Source: Anaerolineae bacterium
GTDB taxonomy: Bacteria > Chloroflexota > Anaerolineae > B4-G1
Length of the DNA: 7,510 bases
Assembly: GCA_030612585.1 (NCBI GenBank)
Contig: JAUWNP010000214.1
Location: forward strand, 1 to 7,510
Direction of reading: 5' to 3'
Notes under the pieces: model-generated
Told to the model about the DNA's origin: nothing
Seen by the model: only the letters and a program-made list of their open reading frames with translations
Databases searched by the model: none
Program-made: the position numbers and the translations under genes
Part shown: in pieces, positions 1-5,582 of the stretch
Layout: each line of letters starts with the position of its first letter
How positions within the stretch are numbered: position 1 is the first letter of the stretch

Positions 1-584
1 AGGCCCTGGATCAGGTGGCGGGTGAAGACAGAGTGGCTACCCTCTCCAATGACTTTGTCTTCCTCAAAGGCGTATTGTATCGCGTCGGAGGCAGTCAGTA
101 CCACCCGCCCGCGTCCCCCGAAATGCTCCTTGGCGCCAATGTCCGCGCCGGCTTTGGCTATCATCCCGCGCGCAAATGCCCCGCTGTAGCAGCAGTCCAG
201 CAACAAGACCTGTCGCCGAGAGCGGCTGTAGCGCATCACGTCGTTGACGAGGGTGGTCGGTATCGCGGTGCTGCGCAGCATTTTGCGGCGTGTGTCGGTG
301 GTGGCAAAGTAGAGGCGTCCATCCTCATCTTTGATACCGTGACCGGAGTAGTAGAGCAGCAAGAGATCATCGGGCTTGCGGTTGGCGAAAAAGGCTTCGC
401 TGGCCTGGTTCACCTTGTACGAGCGTTCGTTCTGGAGTGTTTGTACTTGGAAGCCGCCGACGGCGGGATCCTGGAGGACGCGCGCGAGGGCCTCGGCGTC
501 TTGAGCCGGGGCGACCAATTGCCGAAGATCGGGGTCTTGGTATTGATAACTGGCAATGATCAAGGCGTGACGCTTTTCAGTCAT
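1..584 (-). CDS. Caspase-fold (peptidase C14, EACC1-associated type) protein, N-terminal part, cut by the window edge
   Basis: A cysteine protease domain of the caspase/metacaspase clan; 194 codons are visible and the frame runs off position 1 with no stop. The start MTEKRHALIIASYQY is a typical first beta strand. YYSGHG (residues 78-83) carries the catalytic His82, and LLLDCCYSGAF (127-137) carries the nucleophile, most likely Cys132 with Cys131 beside it. VVLTASDA (161-168) and the SHSVFTRHLIQG stretch (183-194) complete the usual p20-like block. Bacterial proteins of this type often continue into effector-associated or repeat domains and are proposed to act in conflict or cell-death systems; the C-terminal part, which would decide the role, is outside the window. 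The ATG at 584-582 is preceded by GGAG at 594-591 with a 6-nt spacer. Fold and catalytic dyad are clear; the EACC1 label is recalled from family resemblance. Confidence 0.9.
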   Translation of the reverse strand, partial: MTEKRHALIIASYQYQDPDLRQLVAPAQDAEALARVLQDPAVGGFQVQTLQNERSYKVNQASEAFFANRKPDDLLLLYYSGHGIKDEDGRLYFATTDTRRKMLRSTAIPTTLVNDVMRYSRSRRQVLLLDCCYSGAFARGMIAKAGADIGAKEHFGGRGRVVLTASDAIQYAFEEDKVIGEGSHSVFTRHLIQG

Positions 585-590
585 TTATGA

Positions 591-594
591 CTCC
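591..594 (-). promoter_or_regulatory. Shine-Dalgarno GGAG of the caspase gene, inside the element's terminal repeat
   Basis: On the minus strand GGAG stands 6 nt before the ATG at 584. It is part of the outer terminal inverted repeat of the palindromic element, so this ribosome binding site arrived with the element. It supports the chosen start. Confidence 0.6.
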
Positions 595-611
595 ACTGAA
601 AAAAGGGGCTA

Positions 612-620
612 ATTTTAACA
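612..620 (-). promoter_or_regulatory. Possible extended -10 promoter for the caspase gene
   Basis: The minus strand reads TGTTAAAAT here, an extended -10 (TGn followed by TAAAAT). It would start transcription near position 605 and give a leader of about 20 nt before the ATG at 584. No good -35 is visible, which extended -10 promoters tolerate. It lies inside the palindromic element. Motif-only prediction. Confidence 0.35.
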
Positions 621-709
621 CAGAGACGCAAAGGCGCAGAGATTCTTGAATGATGCTTTAATATTTTTGAGAATCGAGGCCTTTGACTGAACAAATCTTG
701 ATCTACCAT

Positions 710-913
710 TTAAATTTCTTTGCGTCTCTGCGCCTCTGCGTTGAAGCTTTTGGTTTTTTCAGTAGAGTCATTTATATTATCGGGCGTGAGAATCAGTTTG
801 TGCCGGCTCATCCAGGCGTCAATGAGTTGTTGTGCCTGGGCTGAGATACCTTTTGCCTCTAGCCTGTCGCCATCAATCGTGCAGATGGATTGTACTCCGA
901 CGCCCCAAGCCTG
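710..913 (-). pseudogene. 3' remnant of an unrecognised gene formerly upstream of the caspase gene
   Basis: The minus strand is open for 67 codons from just after a TGA (916-914) to a TAA inside the palindromic element (712-710). It begins QAWGVGVQSICTIDGDRLEA and passes through QQLIDAWMSRHKLILTPDN, which looks like genuine protein sequence, before entering the element near codon 48. No ATG, GTG or TTG opens the conserved-looking part. Upstream to about 960, two other minus frames look equally protein-like (for example SGEYWRFDRLGASEYNP), which suggests frameshifts or an internal stop in a decaying gene. Without the element this frame would end in TGA at 579-577, overlapping the caspase start codon. 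I do not recognise the family, and the coding call is an inference. Confidence 0.35.
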
Positions 914-1013
914 TCAAATCGCCAATACTCCCCGCTCGTGGCAGCGATGATCGCCCGCCGCCGGCCACATTCCCGTCCAGCAGTAGATACATACAGGCAG
1001 GGAAAAGACTCTC

Positions 1014-1148: not shown

Positions 1149-4100
1149 ATGGGCAAAATCTCAAACCTCAAATCCCAAATCCCAAATCCCAAATGGCTGA
1201 TTGCGATCATTGTTCATTGTTCATTGTTCATTGTTCATTGTTCATTGGCCATTGTCACGGCCCAATCCGGCTCCCAAATCGTCATCAACGAGTTGCAATA
1301 CCACCCCCTCTCCGACGACCACGGCGAGGAGTACATCGAACTCTACAACGCCGGCACTACCACCGTAGACCTCTCTGGCTGGGAGTTCAGCGACGGCATC
1401 GAGTACACCTTCCCTGGCGGCGTGTCCGTTCCGCCGGGCGGCTACGTCGTCGTCGGCCACGACCCGGCCACGGTCGAGGCCGTCTACAGCATCAGCGGTG
1501 TGTTGGGCCCCTTCGAGAGCGGCCGCCTCTCCAACAGCGGCGAGCGGGTGGCTATTGAGGATGCCGAAGGCAGCCTGGCGGACGAGGTTACCTACGACGA
1601 CCACCGCCCCTGGCCCGAAGCGCCGGACGGCAATGGCCCCTCGCTGGAACTGATCAGCCCGGCCTTCGACAACGACAGTCCTTGCTCCTGGGGGGCCAGC
1701 CAGCCGGTCGAGACCAGCCTGGGCACCCCCGGCGCGCAGAACAGTATCTATTCAACCGACAACATCCCTCCCTGCATCACCGGCGTGGCGCACACGCCCG
1801 CCATTCCTACCTCCAGCCAGCCGGTGACCGTCACGGCGCTGGTGGACGACAACAGCGCCGTCATATCGGTGACGCTGCACTATCGCCCCGAAGGGACATC
1901 CAACTACCTGACGCTACCGATGATGTCCCTTTCTTCCCCCCCCCTGGAGGGGGGGGGCTATACCACCGTCATCCCGGCCCAAGGGGATGGACTGTACATC
2001 GAGTTCTACGTCACCGCGACCGACGACGAGGAGGCCGAGAGGCTCGTGCCGGACAGCGCGCCGGGCACCACCTCCGACGAGACAGGGCTGCCTATCACCG
2101 TCAGTTACCTCTACCAGATAGAGGACACCCCGCCCACGAGTGACCTGCCCATTTACCGGCTCATCATGACGCAGGAGAACTGGACCGAACTGACCACCCG
2201 CGACCTCTTTTCCAACGTCCTGCTGGATGCGACTTTCGTCTACGGGGGAGAAGTGTTCTACAACGTCGGCGTGCGCTACCGGGGCGAGAGCTCCCGCTCT
2301 TCCTGGCCCCGCCCCTACCGCATCAAGTTCCGCGACGAGCACGAGTTCGAGGACCGGGAGCGCATCAACCTGGTGAGCGACAACCTGGGGCGCGAGGCGA
2401 TGGCCCACGATCTGTTTCAGCGCGTCGGGCTGCCGTCCTCAGACACCAGATTCGTGAGACTCTACATCAACGAGAACCGGGCGGGCGACTACCTGGACAT
2501 TGAGCAGGTGGACAACGACTTTCTGGAGGCCCACTTCCCCGACGACGACAACGGCAACCTCTATCGCGGCTTCGACGGGGCGGACCTGAGTTATCGCGGC
2601 CCCGATCCCGACAGTTACCGTCCCTACTACCTCAAGAAGAACAACGAGGACGCGGACGACTATTCCGACGTCATCGCGCTGACCGACGCGCTCACCAACA
2701 GCCCCGACGAGACCTTCCGCGCCGAGGCGGAGGCACTGGCCGACATGCGCCAGTGGCTGCGCTGGTTCGCAGTCCAGGCGGTGCTCGATAACCACGAGGG
2801 GGCGCTGTGGGCCGGGCAGGGCGACGACTACTTTCTCTACCATCGCCCCTCCGATGACCGTTTCGTCCTCGTCTCCTGGGACCACGATACCCTATTTCTC
2901 TTCCCAGATCACTCCATCTGGGAGCCCAACTGGTTGGCGGGTGAAATCGTAGTGCGCATCCTGAACTACCCGGACTTCACCCGCTGGTACTACCAGGACA
3001 TCGCCAGCATCGCGGCGAACGAGTTCGCGGTGACGGAGATGTACCCGCGCATTGACGCCCTGCCCGACGTGGTGAGCAGCGAGGACCGGGACAGACTCAA
3101 GTGGTACGTCTCCAACCGCATCCCGGAACTGAACGATCAGATACCCGGCACGAGGCTCTCCATCAGCACCAACGGCGGGGCGAACTTCACCACGACGCAG
3201 CCGGAGGTGACGCTGGAGGGGGACTGCTCTCCCTTGCGCGATGTCTACCCCAACGGGAGCCAGGAGGGGGTACAGTACCCCACGGCGACGACCTGGCACT
3301 ACACGAGCACGCTCTGGACGCGGGACAACGTCTTCGTTTTCACCGATGGGCTGGACAGCCACACAATCGTCGTTTACTGGGACACCTTCCACGGCGGCAC
3401 GCTGACGGAGGACACCACGCTCCCAACCAGCGACTATCCTTATGCCATCACCGACGACATCGTCGTACCGGCTGGGCTGACGCTGACTATCGAGCCAGGC
3501 GCGACGCTCCAGTTCCAGGCGGACCGTTCGCTGCGCGTAGAGGGCGGCCGGCTGTTGGCCGAGGGGACCAACAACCAGCCCATCGTCTTCACCCGGCAGG
3601 GGAGCGGCTACTGGGGCGGCATCCTGCTCTACGACACCCAGGCGGACAACCAGATCCGCCACGCCGTGATAGAGTACACGCGCCAGGTGATAGACCCTCC
3701 CCGCACCCACGGCGTCACTGCCTACGGCTCCCACGTGACCATCGCCGACAGTATTCTACGCCATACCCAGGCCAGCAATGCCGTCATTGCCGACTACGAC
3801 TCGACGCTCTACTTGCTGCGCAACGAGATTTACGACATCGAGAGCGATGCCGTGCACGCTACCGGTGGCTATGCTTTCATCCAGGGCAACCACATCTACG
3901 ACATCCGGCGGAGTCTCTATCCACTGGAGGGCATCGAAATCAGCCACATGACCACGCCAGCGGTGTTACTGGACAATCACATCCACGACGTCTCCGACGA
4001 CTGTATGGACCTGAACCACTCATCGGCGATCATCGAGCGCAACGAGGTGCACCACTGCGACGACAAGGGCATCTCCATCGGGCACCCCTCCTCCACGACG

Positions 4101-4601
4101 CTGGTGAACAACCTGGTCTACGCCTGTAATGACGGTATCGCCGTCAAGGACGGTGCAGTCTCGTACATCGTGAACAACACTGTGGCCGACAATCAGGAGA
4201 ATGGCATCTGGCTGTACGAGGTTCAGTTGCCGGGACACTATGGACTGGGGGCCGGCTTCGCTACGGTCGTCAATACCATCGTGTGGGGGAATGGCACCGA
4301 GATTGAGTTAGATCTGGAGCACGGCGCGGTCATCACTGTCGCCTACTCCGACGTGCGGGGCGACTCGGTCTGGCCCGGCGAGGAGAACATCAACACCGAC
4401 CCACTGTTTCGCACCCCTCAAAGCGGCGTCTACCGGCTGCTGGAGGATTCGCCGTGCGTAGACACGGGCACGCCGGAGGGCGCGCCGGACGAGGACATCC
4501 GGGGTGTCTACCGGCCCCACGGCGAGGGGTACGAACGGGGGGCGCACGAGTTCTTTGAGTTCTTCTCCTGTTACCTGCCATTGATCTTGCGGTTGCATTG
4601 A
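1149..4601 (+). CDS. Exported lamin-tail / CotH-kinase-like / beta-helix surface protein, 1150 aa
   Basis: A secreted multidomain protein. Residues 1-38 form a signal peptide: a Lys-containing n-region, hydrophobic 17-36 and likely cleavage after VTA38. Residues 43 to about 200 match a lamin-tail domain (INELQYHP, EEYIELYNAG, LSGWEFSDG). About 205-325 is an Ig/FN3-like spacer. About 333-667 is CotH-kinase-like: LPIYRLIM, YRGESSR (377-383, the RGxSS-type glycine loop), GDYLDIEQVD, and SWDHD (576-580, metal-binding WDxD). About 668-750 is a beta-sandwich linker. About 760-1060 is a right-handed parallel beta-helix (IEPGATLQF, then many N-H-I-Y-D-type turns), followed by a choice-of-anchor-Q-like segment (NTDPLF, SPCVDTG). 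The protein ends YLPLILRLH. Start ATG 1149 has GGAGG at 1138-1142, 6 nt away. Its 5' end is made of 7-bp repeats. CotH relatives phosphorylate spore-coat proteins in Bacillus; the substrate here is unknown. Confidence 0.88.
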   Translation: MGKISNLKSQIPNPKWLIAIIVHCSLFIVHCSLAIVTAQSGSQIVINELQYHPLSDDHGEEYIELYNAGTTTVDLSGWEFSDGIEYTFPGGVSVPPGGYVVVGHDPATVEAVYSISGVLGPFESGRLSNSGERVAIEDAEGSLADEVTYDDHRPWPEAPDGNGPSLELISPAFDNDSPCSWGASQPVETSLGTPGAQNSIYSTDNIPPCITGVAHTPAIPTSSQPVTVTALVDDNSAVISVTLHYRPEGTSNYLTLPMMSLSSPPLEGGGYTTVIPAQGDGLYIEFYVTATDDEEAERLVPDSAPGTTSDETGLPITVSYLYQIEDTPPTSDLPIYRLIMTQENWTELTTRDLFSNVLLDATFVYGGEVFYNVGVRYRGESSRSSWPRPYRIKFRDEHEFEDRERINLVSDNLGREAMAHDLFQRVGLPSSDTRFVRLYINENRAGDYLDIEQVDNDFLEAHFPDDDNGNLYRGFDGADLSYRGPDPDSYRPYYLKKNNEDADDYSDVIALTDALTNSPDETFRAEAEALADMRQWLRWFAVQAVLDNHEGALWAGQGDDYFLYHRPSDDRFVLVSWDHDTLFLFPDHSIWEPNWLAGEIVVRILNYPDFTRWYYQDIASIAANEFAVTEMYPRIDALPDVVSSEDRDRLKWYVSNRIPELNDQIPGTRLSISTNGGANFTTTQPEVTLEGDCSPLRDVYPNGSQEGVQYPTATTWHYTSTLWTRDNVFVFTDGLDSHTIVVYWDTFHGGTLTEDTTLPTSDYPYAITDDIVVPAGLTLTIEPGATLQFQADRSLRVEGGRLLAEGTNNQPIVFTRQGSGYWGGILLYDTQADNQIRHAVIEYTRQVIDPPRTHGVTAYGSHVTIADSILRHTQASNAVIADYDSTLYLLRNEIYDIESDAVHATGGYAFIQGNHIYDIRRSLYPLEGIEISHMTTPAVLLDNHIHDVSDDCMDLNHSSAIIERNEVHHCDDKGISIGHPSSTTLVNNLVYACNDGIAVKDGAVSYIVNNTVADNQENGIWLYEVQLPGHYGLGAGFATVVNTIVWGNGTEIELDLEHGAVITVAYSDVRGDSVWPGEENINTDPLFRTPQSGVYRLLEDSPCVDTGTPEGAPDEDIRGVYRPHGEGYERGAHEFFEFFSCYLPLILRLH
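1156..1197. repeat. Heptanucleotide tandem repeat (AAATCCC)n inside a coding start
   Basis: Six 7-bp units: AAATCTC, AAACCTC, three exact AAATCCC (1170-1190) and AAATGGC. It encodes the polar n-region of the exported protein (ISNLKSQIPNPKW). A gain or loss of one unit moves the reading frame by one base. All three frames across the tract are open. Confidence 0.88.
1209..1257. repeat. Heptanucleotide tandem repeat (ATTGTTC)n encoding the signal-peptide core
   Basis: Five exact ATTGTTC units (1209-1243) followed by two diverged units (ATTGGCC, ATTGTCA). Three units equal seven codons, so the protein shows a 7-residue repeat, VHCSLFI then VHCSLAI (residues 22-35), which is the hydrophobic core of the signal peptide. 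Its sequence is unrelated to the two neighbouring repeat families, which share only the unit length. Confidence 0.9.
1936..1957. repeat. C9-TGGA-G9 palindrome inside the exported-protein gene
   Basis: Nine C (1936-1944), TGGA, then nine G (1949-1957) form a perfect GC hairpin with a 4-nt loop. In the protein it reads SPPLEGGG (residues 263-270), in a loop of the spacer between the lamin-tail and CotH-like regions. Both homopolymers are prone to slippage, and loss or gain of one base would truncate the protein. Confidence 0.85.
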
Positions 4602-4616
4602 TGCCCATTTCGCCGC

Positions 4617-4633
4617 AATGGGGTATAATGGGG
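4617..4633 (+). promoter_or_regulatory. Promoter -10 TATAAT framed by AATGGGG direct repeats
   Basis: A perfect TATAAT at 4624-4629 stands 28 nt before the ATG at 4658, giving a predicted start near 4636. AATGGGG occurs at 4617-4623 and again at 4627-4633, a 10-bp period (one helical turn) that overlaps the -10 and could be an operator. No good -35 at 16-18 bp is visible. The promoter lies just after the stop of the exported-protein gene, so the downstream genes can be transcribed independently. Confidence 0.5.
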
Positions 4634-4657
4634 TTCATTGAGATTGAGGAGGAGGTA

Positions 4658-4927
4658 ATGGTCAAGAGAGCACAGCAACGTGCCTACTTCTTCTGGGACT
4701 ACGACATCACCGAGGAGGAGGTGCACGAGATCCTGCGCGGCGACGATGAGCCCCGCAAGATCTGGGTGATGAGCCGCATTCTGGAGCGTGCTCACTTTGA
4801 TGACGTCTGGCACTATCTCACTCCACCCGACCTGCGCCTGTACTTCGAGCGACTGCAACTCCGCCCACAAGTCCGAGAGGTATGGGCTCACGCGATTGAG
4901 GTCTGGAACCGTGACGAATGCTCATAG
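4658..4927 (+). CDS. Small DUF6922-like protein, probable partner of the downstream nucleotidyltransferase
   Basis: An 89-residue acidic cytosolic protein with no signal or membrane segment. It opens AQQRAYFFWDYDITEEEVHE and continues with ILRGDDEPRKIWVMSRILER, HFDDVWHYLTPPDLRLYFE and a Trp-rich end (EVWAHAIEVWNRDECS). Short FFWDYD...ILxG...RILExAxFDDVW proteins of this kind commonly sit directly before AbiEii-type nucleotidyltransferase genes; I recall the family as DUF6922 but could not check. By position it could be the antitoxin or a partner, which is inference. Start: GAGGAGGAGG (4646-4655) precedes the ATG; the frame stays open upstream to 4598, but the strong SD and the TATAAT at 4624 favour 4658. 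Its last 17 nt overlap the next gene, so translation is probably coupled. Confidence 0.8.
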   Translation: MVKRAQQRAYFFWDYDITEEEVHEILRGDDEPRKIWVMSRILERAHFDDVWHYLTPPDLRLYFERLQLRPQVREVWAHAIEVWNRDECS

Positions 4928-5582
4928 TGTGCTGACCCTGCTGCAGCGTCGTTTCCTGCAAGCCTTCTTCGCCCACGAGGTCGGGAGGCGCTTTTTCCTG
5001 ACCGGTGGGACAGCCCTGGCAGCGTTCTACCTCCACCACCGGCTCAGCAGGGATGTTGACTTGTTCACTACTGACGACGAGGCGCTACCGCTGGCTCGAC
5101 GTGAGATGCCCTTTATTGCAAGCGATCTGGGCTGCCAGGCACGGAGCGGCACTACGACGCCCACCTTTCAGGTCTTCCTGCTGGAATCCCCCGACGAGCC
5201 GACTCTGAAGGTTGATCTGGTACGCGACATAGATATCCAGTTTGGCACACGCCAGGAGATCAAGGGTGTCGTCGTAGATGCCGAGGAGAATATCGCAGTC
5301 AACAAGATCCTGACCATCTTCGGACGCACGGAGAGCAAGGACTTCGTGGATCTATACTTTCTCCTCCAGGCCGGATATGACGTCAAACGCCTGGTGGCGC
5401 TAGCCAAGCAAAAAGACACCGGCCTGACCGAGTTCTGGCTGGCCGGGATGATGAGGGAAGTCACGAAACTGAAGGATCTACCACCGATGCTGAAGTCGTT
5501 GACTTTGGAGGAGTTACAGGCGTTCTTTCTGGAGTTGGCCGACCGCGAATTCCGCGACGTCAGACCCCCGGATTGGTGGTAG
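4911..5582 (+). CDS. AbiEii/AbiGii-type nucleotidyltransferase toxin-like protein
   Basis: A 223-residue cytosolic protein of the Pol-beta-fold AbiEii family, whose members are toxins of type IV-like toxin-antitoxin and abortive-infection systems; tested relatives transfer nucleotides to tRNA or other acceptors. Visible motifs are FFLTGGTALAAFYLHHR (28-44) with the GG and DVDLF (48-52, metal ligands Asp48 and Asp50), KVDLVRDI (100-107, third acidic residue Asp102), ENIAVNKILTIFGR (126-139) and SKDFVDLYFLL (142-152, conserved K-D-x-x-D-L-Y). All catalytic positions appear intact. GTG 4911 is chosen because GAGG (4898-4901) lies 9 nt upstream and it gives the natural N-terminus; the frame runs further upstream to 4788 but inside the preceding gene. 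A second in-frame GTG is at 4929. The partner is not the usual winged-helix AbiEi antitoxin. Confidence 0.88.
   Translation: MTNAHSVLTLLQRRFLQAFFAHEVGRRFFLTGGTALAAFYLHHRLSRDVDLFTTDDEALPLARREMPFIASDLGCQARSGTTTPTFQVFLLESPDEPTLKVDLVRDIDIQFGTRQEIKGVVVDAEENIAVNKILTIFGRTESKDFVDLYFLLQAGYDVKRLVALAKQKDTGLTEFWLAGMMREVTKLKDLPPMLKSLTLEELQAFFLELADREFRDVRPPDWW

Follow-up and report, generated by a model that had tools for sequence, protein, structure and literature searches.

A caspase-like gene has very probably been hit at its start by a 181-bp MITE-like element, which inserted at ATTTAT and parted the gene from the 3´ end of an EACC1-like gene. Both lie in a window of 7,510 nt, by which we mean the whole stretch of DNA that was analysed. 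In the proposed course of events, the element would have landed over the caspase gene start, duplicated 6 bp of its target and separated the caspase gene from a neighbour whose 3´ end normally lies directly upstream. A DDE transposase with distant kinship to IS1182 likely carried out the transposition; its gene is found beside ends of the same type in five related genomes. Any translational coupling between the two genes would have been lost, and the end of the element may offer GTGGAG as a substitute ribosome-binding site. An insertion of this sort is ordinary in kind and is well supported: the element belongs to a multi-copy family with terminal repeats, 6-bp (at times 7-bp) duplications and a target preference, a transposase gene lies beside the same ends, the caspase start is the one used by its homologues, and the upstream remnant shows homology to the usual caspase partner. 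At this locus, a predicted bacterial conflict system carries a precisely defined lesion (Table 1).

As the preliminary description of this DNA had reported, an exact 10-bp direct repeat, AGTCATTTAT, is present at 579-588 and 766-775 and bounds a nested inverted repeat, with outer arms at 587-604 and 754-771 (94% complementary) and inner arms within 621-642 and 718-741. The minus strand of this 197-bp region (GC content 37.6% over 579-775) is predicted to fold as RNA with -64.9 kcal/mol (z -6.66; 0 of 200 shuffles equal). When the flanks were joined by script, 187 bp were lost and the minus strand read ...GATAATATAAATGACTGAAAAGCG; after this collapse, the upstream frame terminated as ...LTPDNIND* with an 8-nt overlap with the caspase ATG, reproducing the junction that had been described. 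The collapsed product is identical whether the duplication is read as 6 or as 10 bp. The size originally given for the element, 183 bp, is corrected to 181 bp by comparison with its family. The 8-nt overlap had also been offered in support of the insertion, of a coding upstream frame and of the caspase start, but it is weak evidence. The caspase start, ATGACTGA, contains stops in both other frames, so any out-of-phase upstream reading ends with a 4- or 8-nt overlap, and the overlap seen here adds little. That the insert is a true insertion is strongly supported by many copies with different flanking duplications in another genome, G261. The element has no coding capacity of its own, as the ORFs of at least 60 aa that touch 589-769 (3-590, 15-590 and 720-950) only reach in from the sides.

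Table 1. Features at the caspase start and upstream of it, in window coordinates
Feature	Position	Strand	Remarks
Caspase-like Peptidase_C14 gene, starting at 584 and incomplete at the window edge	3..584	-	PF00656, E 4.1e-18
AGTC of the original target	579..582		Matches the element's last four bases; stretches the repeat to 10 bp
Target site duplication ATTTAT, left copy	583..588		Family scheme
MITE-like non-autonomous element, 181 bp	589..769		Family comparison; non-coding
Left terminal inverted repeat GACTCCACTGAAAAAAG	589..605	+	End type also found beside IS1182-like transposase genes
GTGGAG, Shine-Dalgarno-like, from the element's end	591..596	-	6 nt before the caspase ATG; putative role
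Inner hairpin arm, CAGAGACGCAAAGGCGCAGAGA type	621..642
Inner hairpin arm, opposite side	718..741
Right terminal inverted repeat, inward reading GACTCTACTGAAAAAAC	753..769	-
Target site duplication ATTTAT, right copy	770..775		Family scheme
EACC1-like gene remnant, about the last quarter	776..913	-	Frame open from 913; profile match 797-883
Promoter-like TTGACA-17-TACAAT toward the caspase gene	889..917	-	Consensus match only, 11 of 12

The caspase gene and its upstream partner

The part of the caspase gene in the window is an open frame with GHG and DCCYSG motifs, and a search for homologues returned 389 at E 0.001. The closest caspase relatives were P0001 at 93% and P0002-P0011 at 70-76%. 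In 22 of 24 aligned homologues (24 out of 120 listed), the start M stands at the same column, bearing out the start codon that had been proposed. Of 513 caspase relatives in the genome collection, the best 80 were kept; the closest full-length DNA sequence among these is L001, at 64%. It comes from the archaeon Methanocrinis, where an EACC1-like gene ends 10 bp before the caspase gene. A 73% match (L273) covers residues 10-99 only, and no upstream partner was found there. A search for the empty site, as had been suggested, yielded no true empty allele of the locus in the collections searched, L001 being the closest full-length sequence. The viral collection contributed one distant caspase locus (L178), and G261 gave no caspase match at E 1e-10.

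Genomic relatives often have, immediately upstream of the caspase gene, a small ORF whose product ends in a pattern like TIDGDTIEL...LIDAFVRRH. We built a profile, referred to as the EACC1 profile, from 38 upstream ORFs (one row, L011, is in the wrong frame) and compared it with the window's six frames. It matched 797-883 on the minus strand over positions 104-133 of 135 with E 1.6e-6, the next-best match in the window having E 0.57; the remaining three quarters or so of the EACC1-like gene were not found in the window. No Pfam EACC1 model matched two relatives or the remnant, and the EACC1 name is taken from gene order together with the excerpted published description (PMC7159879).

We then compared spacing at the caspase loci, of which there were 108 (3 with less than 300 bp of upstream sequence), or 105 distinct loci once three duplicates were removed by hand. 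An EACC1-like partner was present within 1000 bp upstream in 81 of the 105, and 24 were without a match; 38 of the 108 loci also built the profile, making this detection circular, though not the spacing. Thirty of the 81 partners overlap the caspase gene, 43 lie at 0-15 bp, 6 at 16-100 bp and 2 further away, such that 73 overlap it or lie within 15 bp. Apparent overlaps of 34-63 nt in 17 loci probably reflect a wrong start choice, and an 8-nt overlap of the same kind as that rebuilt here occurs in two loci (L011 and L280). The earlier claim that the upstream frame was coding is supported by homology to the usual caspase partner rather than by the overlap. Only about the last quarter is recognisable and, with some three quarters beyond recognition, what the collapse restores is a relic junction. 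Anyone studying this caspase should bear in mind that its partner gene here is a relic.

This arrangement of genes agrees with the EACC1-caspase system (Kaur et al. 2020, PMC7159879). As given in the excerpted text of that paper, in "System 4" a small 5´ gene directly precedes a 3´ gene whose product has a caspase domain at its N-terminus, and the system is prevalent in actinobacteria. The relatives are like it in that their small 5´ gene directly precedes the caspase gene, and their 5´ ORFs have a hydrophobic glycine-containing segment, as judged by eye. In the window, the 3´ gene has the N-terminal caspase domain (PF00656), whereas an intact EACC1 gene is not found directly 5´; unlike in System 4, the 5´ gene is cut to about its last quarter and parted from the caspase gene by the element.

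The preliminary description had held that the same insert in every relative, or a lack of other copies, would speak against an insertion. Other copies exist, and a search of the 600 bp before the caspase gene at up to two mismatches revealed no end of the element in 104 of the 105 distinct loci. The sole exception, L080, carries one isolated end-like 15-mer some 550 bp upstream, also with up to two mismatches, which we take to be chance. In L068 (the same locus as L148), a 232-bp spacer separates partner and caspase gene. This spacer contains no end at up to two mismatches, and one end-like match at up to three mismatches was found within 700 bp; it too is taken as chance, given that 9 of 27 loci show one at that threshold.

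The sequence around the start codon raises a further reading, in which the insertion turned into a regulatory switch: the element's own ribosome-binding site would replace coupling, and the caspase would be expressed without its EACC1 partner. In keeping with this, the element's end puts GTGGAG 6 nt ahead of the ATG, the caspase frame is open with its two motifs, and a promoter-like site upstream adjoins the EACC1 remnant where partner homology begins. However, promoter-like sites arise in shuffles too (0.6), and across the copies GGAG ends are not preferentially placed ahead of genes, with an ORF following 11 of 31 GGAG ends versus 25 of 47 other ends. We consider the switch unlikely. On the same counts we rejected the idea that GGAG ends of the element generally act as start-codon donors, and we treat the placement of GTGGAG as a coincidence that could still matter. 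It is quite improbable that the locus encodes a rewired cell-suicide-type caspase that lost a membrane sensor partner and draws on an element-borne ribosome-binding site and a promoter in the partner's remains. Were such rewiring real, the caspase would be made on its own, without its partner.

Copies, duplications and target preference of the element family

For the reading that we prefer, insertion of a MITE-like element, we turned to copies in other genomes. In a scan of the class to which G007 belongs (the genome of L068, Caldilineales), 89 of 396 genomes gave matches to the insert, many of them covering the inner hairpin module alone. Near full-length matches were found in one genome, G261, where a copy shares 88.4% identity with the element over its length (by BLAST, 89% identity over query 1-184 of 185). 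The end motif GASTCYMCTGAAAAA has 192 matches in G261 at up to one mismatch, compared to 10 for the reversed motif used as a control, and we estimate roughly 100 elements in this genome. Many of these copies are at unrelated sites, as is characteristic of MITEs. Exact matches to the motif are present in 61 of the 298 genomes in G261's class; the counts are 117 in G251, 96 in G261 and 86 in G194, with 0 control matches in all three. We thus have an abundant transposon-derived family in one bacterial class (86-117 exact ends per genome of 3-8 Mb), along with a likely parent transposase. No account of this element family was found among literature titles and abstract openings.

The amidase encoded in the window is 74% identical to an amidase in G236, a genome of G261's class. 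Amidase matches at E 1e-120 were found in 33 of the 298 genomes of this class, and none at this threshold in G261. Given the kinship to G236, host and element family fit the same class.

Inner and outer parts of the element also occur in other combinations. The GCG-rich inner module (CTTTGCGTCTCTGCGCCTCTGCG type) is present in G009, G002 and G007 (L083, L084, L086 and L087) without transposon ends, as though the element had picked up an independent repeat family. Four stretches of G261 (L181, L201, L207 and L209) have the same outer ends around a different inner module (CACAGAGGACACTGAGAAAA type), and the outer ends seem to mobilise several cargo hairpins.

To determine duplication length, we paired ends with a spacing of 100-420 bp and flanks of 12 bp or more in 60 further G261 stretches and other G261 DNA. 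This gave 78 distinct pairs, the window included, among which spurious inner pairings or decayed ends were left, none being dropped before counting. An exact 6-bp duplication directly outside the ends was found in 29 of the 78 pairs, versus 0.54 in shuffled right flanks, and 10 pairs match at 5 of 6 positions. Six further pairs, separate from the 6-bp ones, have an exact 7-bp duplication (shuffles 0.11), exact 8- or 9-bp duplications were seen in 0 of 78, and 33 pairs have neither a 5-of-6 match nor an exact 6- or 7-bp duplication. The duplication length is thus near-constant at 6 bp, at times 7 bp, as in MITEs, and the window fits the family scheme with an element at 589-769 and the duplication ATTTAT.

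Target preference was assessed with 37 copies that have 5-6 of 6 matching positions and full flanks, leaving the window out. The duplicated sequence tends to ATNNAT, and TC stands directly outside it in 21 of 74 flanks versus 4.8 expected (p 7e-9). Since the element's own end reads GASTC, a match at a TC-flanked target runs on into the element. The left AGTC in the window is the reverse complement of the GACT in the caspase start ATGACT; the TC preference explains part of the 10-bp repeat length, and the further A and G of the match are taken as chance. The flanking repeat of the preliminary description accordingly keeps its exact 10-bp match and is divided into a 6-bp duplication plus 4 extra matching bp. 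That the element instead arrived with a 10-bp duplication, as had been implied, is highly improbable. The match is exact and L081 likewise has a longer imperfect repeat, but exact repeats that end at the element are 6 bp (29 pairs) or 7 bp (6 others) in the family and never 8 or 9 bp, and an extension past 6 bp enters the element's own end, partly explained by the TC preference. For insertions read by eye this is a trap, as a target preference that resembles the element ends lengthens the apparent duplication.

It is scarcely credible that the palindrome is a native regulatory or structural hairpin (an attenuator or RNA element) and the 10-bp repeat chance: a very stable predicted RNA fold just upstream of a start codon would suit such a role, but any long inverted repeat folds well whatever its role, dozens of copies sit at unrelated G261 sites with their own duplications, the ends were not found upstream of the caspase gene in 104 of the 105 distinct loci (the exception being the lone 15-mer of L080), and the insert has no Rfam match at gathering scores, the result on which we also rejected a curated RNA family.

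The likely parent transposase

An autonomous transposon with the same ends, as expected for a MITE, was found in two genomes. Ends 1886 bp apart enclose a 604-codon open frame in G105, and ends 1854 bp apart enclose a 608-codon frame in G261. The two proteins are 49% identical and match DDE transposase models, with PF13751 above the cut-off in both and PF05598 in one of the two. The best NCBI model for both is that of the IS1182 family, NF033551 (E 1.1e-34 and 2.1e-42), yet the scores of 120 and 146 bits are far below its curated cut-off of 270, and we therefore call the parent IS1182-like only.

Transposase relatives at E 1e-60 or better are present in 5 of the 17 genomes searched, each with an end nearby. 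Both ends surround the transposase gene only in G105 and G261, and a single end was found in G052, G067 and G271. The G052 and G271 loci are cut short by contig ends, a stop interrupts the frames in G271 and G067, and of all these ends that of G271 resembles the motif least. The other 12 genomes, all with ends and including G251 and G194, which have as many as G261, gave no transposase relative at this threshold. The G105 transposon is flanked by a duplication matching at 5 of 6 positions (AATCTT/AATCCT); no matching duplication was found for that in G261 (ATGTGT/ACTTAA). Plasmid records returned remote transposases only, all 57 below 60% identity. A transposase gene accompanies such ends in 5 of the 17 genomes, and the insert is accordingly most likely a MITE, which an IS1182-like transposase may have mobilised in trans.

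A comparable element is the 160-bp ISMac2-related MITE of Methanosarcina acetivorans, which its authors paired with an IS1182 family transposon in the excerpted report (PMC3852290); going by the table legend there, we take the entries 14, 26 and 4 as copies, inverted repeat length and direct repeat length. By this description, both elements are short and non-autonomous, with many copies, terminal inverted repeats and an IS1182-type partner. Unlike the M. acetivorans MITE as excerpted there (PMC3852290), the present family has about 100 copies in G261, ends of about 17 bp, a 6-bp duplication and an inner GCG-rich hairpin module. IS1272, placed in the IS1182 family, is described in the excerpted source as being without target duplications (PMC5678879).

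Other repeats and genes in the window

We also noted three distinct 7-bp tandem arrays in the window: TCTCCAT x8.6 (1014-1073), AAATCCC x5.6 (1156-1194) and TCATTGT x7.0 (1207-1255). The AAATCCC and TCATTGT arrays are inside the first 36 codons of the gene for a 1150-aa LTD/CotH protein (1149-4601), so copy-number slippage would shift the frame, and we regard this gene as a candidate phase-variable surface gene. At 4598-5582, a small ORF weakly matching DUF6922 (E 0.049, below the cut-off) is followed by an AbiEii-type nucleotidyltransferase gene (PF08843, E 9.7e-16), a possible AbiE-like toxin-antitoxin pair.
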